Shown one piece after another: positions 6,276-32,845 of a stretch of DNA of 64,000 nt. The stretch spans positions 6,103,501 to 6,167,500 of the forward strand of contig NZ_CP029078.1 in assembly GCF_005222485.1 (NCBI RefSeq), given 5' to 3'. Position 1 is the stretch's first letter, and each line of letters starts with the position of its first letter. A program made the position numbers and the translations under genes. The DNA is from Streptomyces griseoviridis. GTDB lineage: Bacteria; Actinomycetota; Actinomycetes; Streptomycetales; Streptomycetaceae. The notes below the pieces were generated by a model that was given only the letters and a program-made list of their open reading frames with translations, was not told where the DNA came from and made no database searches.

Positions 6276-6848
6276 CTCCCCCGGTGGCCGCCTCCCCTCG
6301 GTGGCCACCGCCCGAGACCGGGGCCGCCATGGCGGTATCGGCCCCGCACTCGCCGCACCCGTGGGGACGGGGAACGGCGAGAACCCGAGCCCGGCGGCGA
6401 GCACCTGCTCGCCGCCGGGCTCGGCCGTCGTCCGGAAGGACGGCGGTCAGGTGCGCTGATCACGCCGTGAAGTACCGCGCGGTGGAACGCCGTTGTCTCA
6501 CCGGCAAGGCCCGCCGCGTCACGGGTCTGTCCCGGCGGGCCGGCCGGCGAGGCGGCTTCGGCCGTGCGGCGGCCGGGGCCCGGACGCCCGCCGATGTCCC
6601 CGGCGACGACGGCTGCCGCGCCCGGCCTCGTGTAACAGGGATGTCTTGGCGGGTGACCGCGAGGAACGCACCGTCCGCCGACCCGGTCCTGCTGGGCACA
6701 ACGGGCCACCGGCACCGCCGCGGTGACGAACGGCCGGCCCACCACCCGGGACCCACGGGCCCGATGGGAACCACGGGACCCACAGCACCCGCCGGACACA
6801 CAGCACCCACCGGTCCCGCCGGACCCACAAGACTGAGGAAGCCACACC
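6276..6848. other. 573-nt intergenic region with terminator and Pro/Gly-coding repeat
   Basis: No gene is supported. After the MMPL stop there is a long hairpin (6386-6423). The stretch 6745-6835 is a CCC-ACN-GGN-type repeat that would read as Gly-Pro-x triplets on the plus strand and similar Gly-Pro triplets on the minus strand. It runs up to the DUF4232 lipoprotein start. A 122-codon minus-strand frame (6460-6828) covers it but has no gene-like character beyond the repeat. Confidence 0.4.
6386..6423 (+). terminator. Strong hairpin terminator after the MMPL gene
   Basis: A perfect 16-bp stem (6386-6401 with 6408-6423) has a 6-nt loop CACCTG. It lies 111 nt after the transporter stop. There is no T-run, which is usual for GC-rich actinobacteria. 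Confidence 0.75.
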
Positions 6849-11139: not shown

Positions 11140-11175
11140 TTGAGGAACGATCGGTCAAGAACGATCGTTCCTCAA
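11140..11175. promoter_or_regulatory. TetR operator, 14-bp inverted repeat
   Basis: Arms TTGAGGAACGATCG (11140-11153) and CGATCGTTCCTCAA (11162-11175) are perfectly complementary with an 8-nt spacer. GAACGATCG also occurs as a direct repeat across the spacer. The site lies right upstream of the tetR start, so autorepression is likely. Confidence 0.85.
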
Positions 11176-21065: not shown

Positions 21066-21283
21066 GTTCCTCCCCATCTGTCATCGGAACCTGAGAGGTT
21101 CGCCGTGAACACGTCGTGATCACGGCTTGCACCTTGGGTGGAGCCACCGGTCAGCGGCTCGCTTTTCAGATGTGCCTCGCCCGCGCGGTACGGGGCCTGA
21201 GAGATTCAAGGGAGGGACTTGCTCCTTCGGCGCCCCGGGCGACGCGCTTCCATCGAAGCGCCGCCGGGGACTCTCCCGCGCGG
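21066..21283 (-). ncRNA. Tandem glycine riboswitch upstream of gcvT
   Basis: Read on the minus strand, the first aptamer starts near 21283 with GCGCGGGAGAGTCC and contains GGCGCCGAAGGAGCAA and TCTCAGG; the second contains CACCCAAGGTGCAAGCC and ends with ACCTCTCAGGTTCCGATGACAGA near 21070. These are the conserved glycine aptamer boxes in duplicate. A GGGGAGG stretch follows, and gcvT starts ~68 nt later. Glycine binding should turn on the cleavage operon. Boundaries are approximate. Confidence 0.93.
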
Positions 21284-21467
21284 ATTCAAGCGGCCGGTAT
21301 GCAGTTGGCGGGCACATCATCGCACGCCGCGTCGCGGCACGGCAGGCCCCCTCTGTAACGGGGCTGTGGCACGACGATGACAGAAAAGCGAGACACCGCA
21401 CATTACCTTCTCTTTACACTCTGAGGGGATGGGGAATCCGTAGGGGCCCCAGGGGAGGACGATCACG

Positions 21468-29258: not shown

Positions 29259-30604
29259 GCGAGAAATCCAAGGACACGGCAGTGACCATTCCCGCCCAGG
29301 GTGACGGCGCGAGGACGGCCGACGACCCCGAGATCCTGCTGAAGGTGACCGGGCTCCAGAAGCACTTCCCGATCAAGAAGGGCCTGCTCCAGCGGCAGGT
29401 CGGGGCGGTGCACGCGGTCGACGGCATCGACTTCGAGGTCCGCGCGGGCGAGACGCTCGGCGTCGTGGGCGAGTCCGGCTGCGGCAAGTCGACGATGGGC
29501 CGGCTGATCACCCGGCTGCTCGAACCGACCGGCGGCACGGTCGAGTTCCAGGGCAAGGACATCACGCACCTCGGCATGGGCGGCATGCGCCCGCTGCGCC
29601 GCGACGTGCAGATGATCTTCCAGGACCCGTACTCGTCGCTGAACCCGCGCCACACCATCGGCACCATCGTGGGCGCCCCCTTCAAGCTGCAGAACGTCAC
29701 CCCCGAGGGCGGTCTGAAGAAGGAGGTCCAGCGGCTGCTGTCGGTGGTCGGCCTCAACCCCGAGCACTACAACCGCTACCCGCACGAGTTCTCCGGCGGC
29801 CAGCGCCAGCGCATCGGCATCGCCCGCGCGCTCGCGCTCAACCCGAAGCTGGTCGTGGCGGACGAGCCGGTCTCCGCGCTCGACGTGTCGATCCAGGCGC
29901 AGGTCGTCAACCTGCTGGACGACCTCCAGCAGGAGCTGGGCCTGACGTACGTGATCATCGCGCACGACCTCTCGGTGGTCAGGCACGTCTCGGACCGGAT
30001 CGCGGTGATGTACCTCGGCAAGATCGTGGAGCTGGCCGACCGCGAGTCGCTGTACAAGGCGCCGATGCACCCGTACACCAAGGCGCTGATGTCGGCGGTG
30101 CCGATCCCCGACCCGCGCCGCAAGGACGCCAAGAGCGAGCGCATCCTGCTCCGCGGCGACGTGCCCTCGCCGATCTCGCCGCCCAGCGGCTGCCGCTTCC
30201 ACACCCGGTGCTGGAAGGCGACGGAGATCTGCAAGACGACCGAGCCGCCGCTGCTTGAGCTGCGTCCCGGTCAGCGGGTGGCCTGCCACCACCCGGAGAA
30301 CTTCGAGGACCAGGCCCCGCAGGACACTGTGCTGCTGACGGTGGCGAAGGAGGCGGCCGAGCTGGTCGCCGACGAGGTGCTCGCGGAGTCGGCGGAGACG
30401 TCGGCGGCGGTCGCGGCCGAGGTCTCGGGCGCGACGACGGCTGAGACGACGGCGACGACGGCCGGGACGACGACGACGACGGACGCCTCAGGCGCGGAGG
30501 CCGGCACCGCGTCGACCGCGCCCGCGTCCACCGGCACCCCGGCGCCCGGCACCCCGGCGACCGGCACCGAGCCGGCCGCGGGTCAGGAGCCGACCGACAA
30601 GTAG
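29255..30604 (+). CDS. Peptide ABC transporter ATP-binding protein (DppF/OppF type) with Ala/Thr-rich tail
   Basis: The product is 449 residues from a GTG at 29255 overlapping the previous stop (GTGA). Walker A GESGCGKS, signature FSGGQRQR and Walker [13 protein letters not shown] are intact, with the C-terminal cysteine region [10 protein letters not shown] ... RVACHH. Beyond about residue 350 there is an unusual ~95-residue tail of Ala, Thr, Glu and Pro (e.g. [17 protein letters not shown]), not part of the ATPase fold. Its role is unknown; it may be a disordered extension. Confidence 0.93.
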
Positions 30605-30625
30605 CGCATGATGGCTTGGCAAAGT

Positions 30626-30635
30626 CATGTACATG
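30626..30635. promoter_or_regulatory. CATGTACATG palindrome after the opp operon
   Basis: A perfect 10-bp palindrome lies 22 nt past the last opp stop and 4 nt before the long inverted repeat leading into the M1 peptidase gene. It may be part of the M1 gene's promoter control. Function unknown. Confidence 0.35.
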
Positions 30636-30638
30636 TCT

Positions 30639-30717
30639 GAACGGGAGAGTTCAGAGTCGTCCGTGCCCGCATGATCGGTCACGCTCGAAAGGGACGACTC
30701 ATGGAACTCTCCCGTTC
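30639..30717 (+). promoter_or_regulatory. Long inverted repeat enclosing the start codon of the M1 peptidase gene
   Basis: The left arm (30639-30662) pairs with the right arm (30692-30717). The outer 14 bp (GAACGGGAGAGTTC with GAACTCTCCCGTTC) and inner 9 bp (GAGTCGTCC with GGACGACTC) are perfect. Between them, the single A at 30653 faces the ATG start codon at 30701-30703. The ribosome site AAGGGA is at the edge of the 29-nt apical loop. In RNA, the hairpin would bury the start codon, suggesting translational control or, alternatively, termination of the opp transcript. Confidence 0.8.
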
Positions 30718-32092
30718 GGCACGTCGGGGAGCCGTCGCGGTCGCGGCGGCTTCCTTCTTCGCCATCGCGGCCGCCCCGGCCCCCGCCCCCGGCGCCCCCG
30801 GCATCGGCGACCCCTACTTCCCCGAGCTGGGCAACGGCGGCTTCGACGCCCGCCACTACGCCCTCGACATCGCCTACGACCCGGACACCGACCGCCTCGA
30901 CGGCCGCACCACGCTCACCGCCCGCGCCACCCGGAACCTCTCCTCCTTCGACCTCGACCTCCAGAAGCTCGACGTCACCGGCGTCCAGGTCGACGGCAGA
31001 CGGGCCGCGTTCACCCGGCAGGGCGACGAACTGCGCGTCACCCCGCGCGCCTTCCTGCGCGAGGGCCGCGACTTCGACGTCACCGTCACCTACGGCGGGA
31101 CACCCGAACCGCTGAACGGCCCCATCGTCTTCGGCTCCGACTACGGCTGGATGAAGACCCCCGACGGCGTCTTCGTCGCCTGCGAGCCCAACGCGGCCTC
31201 CACCTGGTTCCCGTCCAGCGACCACCCCTCCGACAAGGCCACCTACGACATCCGCATCAAGGCGCCCCGCGGCCTGACCGGAGTCTCCAACGGGCGGCTG
31301 GTGTCCACGCGCGACAAGGGCGGCTCCACGTACACCCACTGGCGCGAGTCGCGGCCCATGGCCAGCTACCTCGCCACCGCCACCATCGGGAAGTTCGACG
31401 TCAGGACCGGCCGGACACCCGGCGGCACCCCGATCTACGTGGCGATCGACCCGGTCCTCGCCGACAGCAACAGCGTCGACGTGTACGCCGTGACCGCCGC
31501 CGCCACCGACTACTGGTCGACGCTGTTCGGGCCCTACCCCTTCGAGGAGACCGGCGCGATCGTCGACGACATGCCGGAGGCCGGCTTCTCCCTCGAAGTG
31601 CAGTCGAAACCGGCCTACTCGGCGGTGCGCAGCGAGACGACGATCGTCCACGAACTGGCCCACCAGTGGTTCGGCGACTCCGTGTCGGTGGCCCACTGGA
31701 AGGACATCTGGCTCAACGAGGGCTTCGCCACCTACGCGCAGTGGCTGTGGGGCGAGCACCAGGGCACCCGCACCGCGCACGACGCGTTCCTGGCCGGCTA
31801 CGGCTCCCGCCCCGCGGACAGCGCCTTCTGGCAGACCCTCCCCGGCGACCCCCAGCGCGACACCATGTTCGCCTCCGCCGTCTACCAGCGCGGCGCGATG
31901 ACCCTCCAGATGCTGCGCGAACGCATCGGCGACAGGGCCTTCTTCGCGCTGCTGCCCGCCTGGACGAAGCTGCACCGCTACGGCAACGCGGACACCGCCG
32001 ACTTCGTGCGGCTGGCCGAGAAGGTCTCAGGACAGCGGCTGGACGACCTCTTCGACACCTGGCTGTTCACGGCGGGCAAGCCCGCCCTGTAG
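30701..32092 (+). CDS. Secreted M1-family metallopeptidase (aminopeptidase N-like)
   Basis: The product is 463 residues from the ATG at 30701; an in-frame ATG at 30671 lies in the hairpin loop without a ribosome site. A signal peptide (LSRSARRGAVAVAAASFFAIAAAPAPAPGAP) is followed by the M1 beta domain and the thermolysin-like domain with zinc motif HELAHQ (His317, His321) and Glu340 in LNEGF (HExxH-18-E). It lacks the C-terminal helical domain of full-length PepN. Being next to the peptide importer, it may trim peptides outside the cell for uptake; inferred. Confidence 0.93.
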   Translation: MELSRSARRGAVAVAAASFFAIAAAPAPAPGAPGIGDPYFPELGNGGFDARHYALDIAYDPDTDRLDGRTTLTARATRNLSSFDLDLQKLDVTGVQVDGRRAAFTRQGDELRVTPRAFLREGRDFDVTVTYGGTPEPLNGPIVFGSDYGWMKTPDGVFVACEPNAASTWFPSSDHPSDKATYDIRIKAPRGLTGVSNGRLVSTRDKGGSTYTHWRESRPMASYLATATIGKFDVRTGRTPGGTPIYVAIDPVLADSNSVDVYAVTAAATDYWSTLFGPYPFEETGAIVDDMPEAGFSLEVQSKPAYSAVRSETTIVHELAHQWFGDSVSVAHWKDIWLNEGFATYAQWLWGEHQGTRTAHDAFLAGYGSRPADSAFWQTLPGDPQRDTMFASAVYQRGAMTLQMLRERIGDRAFFALLPAWTKLHRYGNADTADFVRLAEKVSGQRLDDLFDTWLFTAGKPAL

Positions 32093-32188: not shown

Positions 32189-32845
32189 GTGCTCCCGCAA
32201 CTCTTCAATCCCTCCGTCCAGCACACCCTCGACCTCGTCGGGATCTTCGTGTTCGCCATCTCCGGCGCGCTGCTGGCGGTCCGCAAGAACTTCGACGTGT
32301 TCGGCATCGCCGTCCTCGCCGAGGTCACCGCGCTGGGCGGGGGACTCTTCCGCGACCTGGTCATCGGGGCCGTGCCGCCGGCCGCCTTCACCGACCTCGG
32401 CTACTTCCTCACCCCGCTGCTCGCCGCCCTCCTGGTCTTCTTCCTGCACCCCCATGTGGAGCGCATCCAGGCCGGGGTGAACGTCTTCGACGCGGCGGGC
32501 CTCGGCCTGTTCTGCGTCGCCGGGACGACGAAGGCGTACGAGTACGGGCTCAGCCTCACCTCGTCCGCGGTCCTCGGCCTGGCCACCGCCGTCGGCGGGG
32601 GTGTGCTGCGGGACGTGCTCGCCAACGAGGTGCCGTCGCTGCTGCGCTGGGACCGCGACCTCTACGCGGTCCCGGCGATCGTCGGCGCCACCATGGCCGT
32701 CCTGTGCATCCGTTACGACGTGCTCACCCCGCTCACCGGCGGCTTCGCGGCCGTCACCGCCTTCGCCCTGCGCCTGCTCGCGATGCGGTACCACTGGCGA
32801 GCGCCGCGTGCGTGGAACCGCCGCTCGACGGTGCGCGAGGAGTAG
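32189..32845 (+). CDS. TRIC cation channel family membrane protein
   Basis: The product is 218 residues from a GTG at 32189. Two UPF0126 repeats of three helices are seen, each with a glycine-rich motif (GIAVLAEVTALGGGLFRDLVIG and SAVLGLATAVGGGVLRDVLANEVP). Prokaryotic TRIC proteins are trimeric potassium-permeable channels. A GAGAAT box lies 5 nt before the GTG, so the mRNA may be leaderless. Its 3' end overlaps the opposing hydrolase gene by 92 bp. Confidence 0.9.
   Translation: MLPQLFNPSVQHTLDLVGIFVFAISGALLAVRKNFDVFGIAVLAEVTALGGGLFRDLVIGAVPPAAFTDLGYFLTPLLAALLVFFLHPHVERIQAGVNVFDAAGLGLFCVAGTTKAYEYGLSLTSSAVLGLATAVGGGVLRDVLANEVPSLLRWDRDLYAVPAIVGATMAVLCIRYDVLTPLTGGFAAVTAFALRLLAMRYHWRAPRAWNRRSTVREE

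Follow-up and report, generated by a model that had tools for sequence, protein, structure and literature searches.

The start of an M1-family metallopeptidase gene in Streptomyces griseoviridis lies in a long stem whose left arm occupies the short gap behind an oligopeptide ABC transporter (opp) operon, and we interpret this stem, with a probability of roughly 0.6, as a fold-back insulator between the operon and the peptidase gene. This reading is based on the structure itself, its covariation among relatives and a link between loss of the stem and distance from opp. Judged from comparison of sequences, the stem is genuine, and selection maintains it in many Streptomyces species.

The stem and its locus

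The window, the 64,000-nucleotide stretch of DNA analysed here, is part of a single-contig 8.96 Mb genome. Within the opp operon, Pfam identifies the SBP_bac_5 binding protein and the last ATPase; two permeases and the other ATPase were recognised from the appearance of their reading frames. The peptidase ATG at 30701 stands 96 nt past the opp end at 30604, a distance from opp stop to ATG that is typically about 97 nt among relatives, and the encoded enzyme, by the look of its N terminus, would be secreted. The neighbourhood, with a glycine riboswitch and opp, presumably matches S. coelicolor SCO5470-SCO5480. Genes SCO5476-SCO5480 have been termed an oligopeptide transporter operon (PMC4398421). 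Tandem glycine riboswitch aptamers score above the Rfam gathering threshold at 21068-21288 on the minus strand, and a gene with a glycine transporter domain (PF03458) occupies 32189-32842, directly past the peptidase gene. The parts of the element and its flanking genes are as follows.

29300..30604, forward strand: last opp operon gene, an ATPase (Pfam ABC_tran and oligo_HPY); start approximate, stop codon 30602-30604
30606..30630, forward strand: dyad or hairpin A, arms 30606-30612 and 30624-30630, GCATGAC-N11-GTCATGC; covaries (z 6.8)
30626..30635, forward strand: conserved box CATGNNCATG, 16 nt before CAGAGT; possible -35 region or operator
30637..30652, forward strand: P1 left arm, 16 pairs with 30704-30719; sits between the two boxes, in their spacer, and is what decays in loci far from opp
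30652..30657, forward strand: CAGAGT, candidate -10 element (TANNNT-like), with a predicted transcription start near 30664
30654..30662, forward strand: P2 5' strand, pairs with 30692-30700; weaker covariation (z 2.7, P 0.014)
30662..30683, forward strand: P3 hairpin, 30662-30669 with 30676-30683, imperfect in the window; would be the 5' end of the gene's own mRNA
30687..30694, forward strand: Shine-Dalgarno-like GAAAGGGA; its region (30686-30694) is also complementary to codons 4-7 (30710-30718), the candidate pairing P4 of 8 pairs
30692..30700, forward strand: P2 3' strand, pairs with 30654-30662
30701..32092, forward strand: M1-family metallopeptidase gene with both Peptidase_M1 domains (Pfam); its ATG (30701-30703) falls within the stem's internal loop
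30704..30719, forward strand: P1 right arm, codons 2-7; near-invariant, including the synonymous sites of codons 3-7

An earlier note had described a stem of 23 bp with a single unpaired A opposite the ATG, and we confirmed this geometry. The outer helix comprises 14 Watson-Crick pairs (30639-30652 with 30704-30717), A30653 is unpaired and faces the ATG, and nine further pairs (30654-30662 with 30692-30700) form the inner helix P2. Two more pairs, the wobble U30638-G30718 and C30637-G30719, extend the base of the stem, and the window reads CACGTCGGGGAGCC from 30720 onward. None of 200 dinucleotide shuffles folded as stably (z -5.0). Perfect 14-bp inverted repeats as such are not rare, with 12 overlapping counts in the 64-kb window, and the case against chance therefore rests on the relatives. 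The window holds two further near-perfect inverted repeats, at 6385-6424 (19 bp, perfect) and 11140-11175 (17 bp, 94%), both with arms separated by 2 nt.

Conservation and covariation among relatives

Relatives were gathered in three ways: a DNA search covered 61 genomes, a protein search of genome contigs contributed the best 80 of its 174 loci, and 392 genomes were scanned for the right-arm pattern. A filter that allowed up to three changes in the right arm, and which would miss peptidase genes with a very different start, recognised the peptidase start in 151 of 204 loci, leaving 53 without; among the best 80 of 174 protein-found loci it passed 79, L107 being cut by a contig end. The 151 loci reduce to 121 distinct sequences, the window's included, and L115-L204 came mostly through the right-arm pattern, so that the sample favours a conserved right arm. 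The usual order is dyad A, CATGNNCATG, the left arm GAACGGGAGAGTG, CAGAGTC, a variable loop with P3, GAA(A)GGGACGA, ATG and the right arm. At least 10 of 12 P1 pairs are kept in 109 of the 121 sequences, all with the stem in the identical register relative to the AUG, while 11 keep eight or fewer and L039 keeps nine. The spacing of the P1 arms varies with the loop.

For a wider search, model R1, built on an RNAalifold consensus, was replaced by R2, for which the structure was supplied. Under stricter filters and at E 0.001, R2 has matches in 46 of 297 genomes of the family (a count of model matches), with one match per genome in all 46, six of them from a second genus. A diverged set of 20 loci includes six for which the finder gave no start; L245, L246 and L249 of these match R2.

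Covariation in M1 orthologues behind opp, the check that the earlier note had proposed, found the arms both conserved and covarying. As the null, columns were simulated independently on a FastTree tree of the downstream codons with fitted rates; the P1 test needs no alignment choice, because the alignment of left block and first codons is free of gaps. Summed excess pairing of P1 over the 121 distinct sequences was 0.323 against a null of 0 ± 0.05, a value reached in none of 1000 simulations, with z 6.3-6.9 over repeat analyses. Eight slid registers (-3 to +5) served as a control and gave z -2.0 to 1.1 and P 0.12 to 0.97. The signal is carried by pairs 1-4, 12, 14 and 15, whose right side varies at all; P1 covariation is limited to these few pairs because the right arm hardly varies. 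Dyad A and P3 also covary (z 6.8 and 4.3), and P2 does so more weakly (z 2.7, P 0.014). In alignment A1, pair 17-100 occurs as GC, UA and CG, and pair 16-101 as UA, CG, GC and UG; with the given structure 86.7% of cells pair, versus 30-45% when it is slid. The second genus shows an A-U/G-C double change in P1, with G-C where Streptomyces has A-U, in the five of its six loci that were readable (L236, L238, L243, L244 and L247), which have GGGAGGGTGC opposite GCACCCTCCC.

RNAalifold did not predict P1 when run on 59 diverse sequences with outliers; it returned only five pairs, three between Shine-Dalgarno G and codon 4-5 C and two others. In a reconstruction that included the lineages that lost P1, one-sided left-arm changes from the paired state broke the pair 93 times and kept it 73 times, and two-sided changes kept it nine times and broke it six times. 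Template-switch correction of inverted repeats could mimic covariation but would not explain the link between loss and distance described below.

Loss of the stem, the candidate promoter and opening of the start site

The distance analysis covered 135 distinct sequences (the 121 plus 14 diverged loci), of which 134 were used and L171 (259 nt upstream) was left out. P1 was called lost when nine or fewer of 12 pairs remained; loci were near when the opp stop lay at most 125 nt from the peptidase start, and far when it lay more than 125 nt away or no opp was found within 1.05-2.4 kb (three loci). P1 was lost in none of 103 near but in 12 of 31 far sequences (Fisher 3e-9, uncorrected and on related tips), and the mean arm duplex measured -30.2 kcal/mol in near versus -20.4 kcal/mol in far loci (Mann-Whitney 1e-6). 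When events were placed on a tree of 120 sequences, all eight independent losses fell on far branches, which account for 18.3% of branch length (P 1.3e-6). The 125-nt limit was chosen after a first look at the data; with other cut-offs, losses numbered 0/85 versus 12/49 at 105 nt, 1/108 versus 11/26 at 150 nt and 5/115 versus 7/19 at 200 nt (P 2e-4). The protein-found loci by themselves (L035-L114, best 80 of 174) gave 0/54 near versus 10/20 far (P 2.6e-7).

P1 is still kept in 19 of the 31 far loci. Additional sequence, frequently including a long GC-rich hairpin, lies in the far gaps. Their strongest hairpin reaches -32 kcal/mol or lower in 11 of 12 losers and -42 kcal/mol or lower in 14 of 19 far keepers, values that are minima over unequal lengths, taken without a shuffled control and with an arbitrary 298 nt for the three loci lacking opp. 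A second hairpin in the gap may permit loss of P1, but it does not force it, since far keepers have strong gap hairpins too.

What decays in the 12 losers is the left arm, whose identity to the near consensus over 12 positions falls from 91% in near loci to 42%. Over the same comparison CAGAGTC goes from 97% to 90%, the right arm from 97.2% to 97.1%, and the first box, CATGNNCATG, from 93% to 74%, a drop that is partly an artefact, as L094, L095 and L108 have a shorter spacer and were compared out of step. A pattern that places a CANNNT-like box 15-16 nt from CATGNNCA[TC]G matches in 11 of 12 losers and 23 of 31 far loci; L095, the loser without a match, has the first box, and its second box reads GAGAGTC. 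In the eight far loci where the two-box pattern is absent, the first box is missing (L010, L186, L187, L248 and L250) or one letter off (L065 and L072), or the second box is off (L095).

Two boxes at a fixed distance with a free interval between them look like a promoter. Promoters of S. lividans carry a -10 TANNNT and a -35 TGAC, mostly 18-19 nt apart (PMC6742748); CAGAGT fits TANNNT except at the first base, and by eye we saw no TGAC-type -35 element 18-19 nt upstream of it, so that the upstream box may instead be an operator or activator site. In one assembly (locus L009; genome G014, contig C275) about 35 nt of leader and loop are missing and CAGAGT stands 7 nt from the ATG; that is about the right distance, and this layout would give a leaderless mRNA starting at the ATG. 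Three further ideas were rejected. A regulon defined by CATGNNCATG-N15..17-CANNGTC has only three places in the genome, one of which is the present locus; for an ECF-type promoter GAAC-N15-CGTC across the left arm, CGTC is by eye not kept where GAAC is; and a small reading frame from a GTG in the left arm has, again by eye, neither its start nor its frame conserved.

Dyad A averages 5.3 of 7 pairs in far versus 5.9 of 7 in near loci. Since the dyad mostly persists next to the peptidase gene even in far loci, it is probably part of that gene's own control region, where it may act as an operator or an RNA hairpin. It stands before the peptidase gene even with opp about 1 kb away (for example in L085 and L156), and in L094 and L095 it has GNRA-type loops.

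The predicted cost of opening positions -14 to +15 of the mRNA was computed for 102 near loci, with L009 and L171 left out. On average these require 29.6 kcal/mol when the left arm is included, 11.4 for a transcript that begins inside the stem and 15.4 with the left arm shuffled; the corresponding values are 26.0, 11.8 and 15.6 kcal/mol for the 19 far keepers and 13.8 (natural upstream sequence), 12.3 and 13.4 kcal/mol for the 12 losers. For 34 gene starts selected in the window by simple rules, each with 100 nt upstream, the mean is 16.6 kcal/mol and the highest value, 32.2, belongs to the peptidase. By these models only mRNA coming from upstream would be locked. In the predicted fold the AUG is mostly unpaired and the Shine-Dalgarno half open, and codons 2-7 close the site. 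Taken by itself, the accessibility of the Shine-Dalgarno gives the short mRNA no advantage (in near loci its mean unpaired value is 0.51 in the long and 0.24 in the short form); the predicted difference between the two mRNAs sits in codons 2-7.

The synonymous sites of codons 3-7 are near-invariant (CTC 116/117, TCC 121/121, CGT 118/121, TCG 112/119 and GCA 118/120), counts to which loci gathered by this same stretch contribute, and many later peptidase codons do vary at such sites. Loss of P1 leaves the right arm conserved, and this arm therefore has a further role. A candidate reason is P4, the pairing of GAA(A)GGGA with codons 4-7, which is complete or nearly so in the near, far and lost groups, and is so nearly invariant that covariation cannot test it. 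In structural models P4 would be a possible second, milder lock on the gene's own mRNA; it is absent from the minimum-energy fold of the window's own short mRNA. Codon 9 is TTA, the rare bldA-dependent leucine codon, in 57 of 105 sequences with leucine there, which suggests developmental control of peptidase translation; the window has CGG at this place (30725-30727).

The insulator reading, its rivals and known systems

For the insulator we infer a promoter, its start site, the existence of read-through and the step that is blocked. The peptidase gene would have its own promoter in the gap, marked by the boxes CATGNNCATG and CAGAGT and with transcription predicted to begin near 30664, and this promoter's spacer would be taken up by the stem's left arm. 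mRNA made from it would lack the left arm and be translatable, whereas read-through mRNA from opp would carry both arms, cover the Shine-Dalgarno region, the AUG and codons 2-7 with P1 and P2, and stay untranslated. Candidate blocked steps for opp-derived mRNA are translation, termination and RNase cleavage of the 25-bp stem, and the opp transcript itself may be terminated or destabilised by this hairpin.

The earlier interpretation holds in part. Its central idea, RNA-level pairing that occludes the peptidase start region, is supported by structure prediction and covariation. It had listed transcription starting at or after 30660 among the findings that would speak against its reading; here, such a start is predicted for the peptidase's own mRNA, in which case only transcripts that enter from opp would contain the stem. 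The RNA thermometer and the ligand switch that it had entertained are not supported. At a predicted opening cost of about 30 kcal/mol (37 °C parameters) the helix would be too strong to melt at growth temperatures. The conserved letters lie in stems, boxes and the Shine-Dalgarno, with no aptamer-like unpaired ligand core of the riboswitch kind among them, and no Rfam family reaches its gathering score at the element, the best sub-threshold hit being a microRNA model at 29.5 of 90 bits. Nor is the alternative ATG at 30671 supported. It shares the reading frame of the peptidase but is not conserved: L035, a close relative with 94% protein identity, has CACGATCGG at this place.

The hairpin may double as the opp terminator, as the earlier note had also proposed. 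As a rival, the hairpin would be only a terminator or 3'-end stabiliser of opp that overlaps the next gene for compactness, with hiding of the start as a side effect. In near loci the element takes up about 95 of the at most 125 nt, so that apart from A hardly any other hairpin could fit between the opp stop codon and the stem, and many far loci have other strong GC-rich gap hairpins, by eye without an evident U run in L039, L072 and L150 and with one in L006, L057 and L083. In S. clavuligerus, moreover, highly structured 3' ends without a U-rich tract (353) exceed those with one (182), according to PMC8269248. Yet in the window the right arm is not followed by a U run, so it is not a U-tract intrinsic terminator, and the 3' strand lies inside the peptidase codons in one register to the AUG in 109 of 121 sequences, a placement that a terminator does not need; we consider this rival unlikely.

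Still less probable, in our estimate, is that every peptidase transcript begins ahead of the left arm, or arises only as part of the opp operon, so that each one would contain the stem, which would act as a constitutive damper or as a switch opened by a protein, RNA or ligand. The candidate promoter is not canonical, and dyad A, which lies upstream, also covaries (z 6.8) and holds more G-U than A-C cells (102 versus 27), as an RNA helix would, although base composition may contribute. An always-present stem, however, predicts neither the loss of P1 only where opp is far nor the decay of the left arm between two boxes held at fixed spacing. A DNA operator of two half-sites with no RNA role would fit the conservation of the right arm where the left is lost, but it is at odds with arm spacing that varies with the loop, with pairing that tolerates G-U above A-C (63 versus 31 cells) and with covariation in P2 and P3, between the arms; we give it very little credence.

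Insertion sequences IS10, IS50 and IS200 protect their transposase genes by a fold-back that leaves outside read-through mRNA translationally silent and own-promoter mRNA not. The insulator proposed here would share this split between silent read-through mRNA and translatable own-promoter mRNA; those systems are mobile elements with arms at their termini, whereas the present gene is immobile and the element occurs in one copy per genome (46/46 matched genomes). The closest described logic, in our analysis, is that of the phage T4 gene e leader, and we would claim a likeness of working without homology. For gene e (lysozyme), and also soc, 49 and I-TevI, the review PMC3014915 describes a long early mRNA that folds a helix over the ribosome site; late promoters of gene e lie in the DNA of the 5' strand, and the short mRNA without the helix is translated. 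Common to both is a helix over the Shine-Dalgarno/AUG region in the long transcript, predicted here and supported by covariation. The T4 promoter in the 5'-strand DNA would have as its counterpart two conserved boxes with a free spacer, a putative promoter. T4 shows temporal control of phage genes by experiment; here the evidence is from sequence only and concerns a chromosomal gene behind an unrelated operon. Unlike in T4, the stem is longer and reaches codon 7, is found in two genera of one family and is lost in lineages with a distant neighbour. With the U-tract-less hairpin 3' ends of Streptomyces (PMC8269248), the element shares a GC-rich hairpin past a stop codon without a U run, but this hairpin holds the next gene's start codon and a candidate promoter.

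In titles and the starts of abstracts of the open-access literature we found no description of such an element for a conserved chromosomal gene, and what seems new is the setting of a kind of insulation known from phage T4. Taken more generally, the element would be a gene-boundary device: the 5' strand of a start-locking hairpin would sit inside the downstream promoter's spacer, the promoter used would decide translatability, and the device would replace a terminator between head-to-tail genes and decay once the genes are really separated. We give this wider proposal an even chance. Packed bacterial genes need shielding from read-through of their neighbours, and evolution seems to have run the test repeatedly. 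If the promoter reading is true, the device would have a searchable signature, an inverted repeat that spans a promoter and the next start codon.
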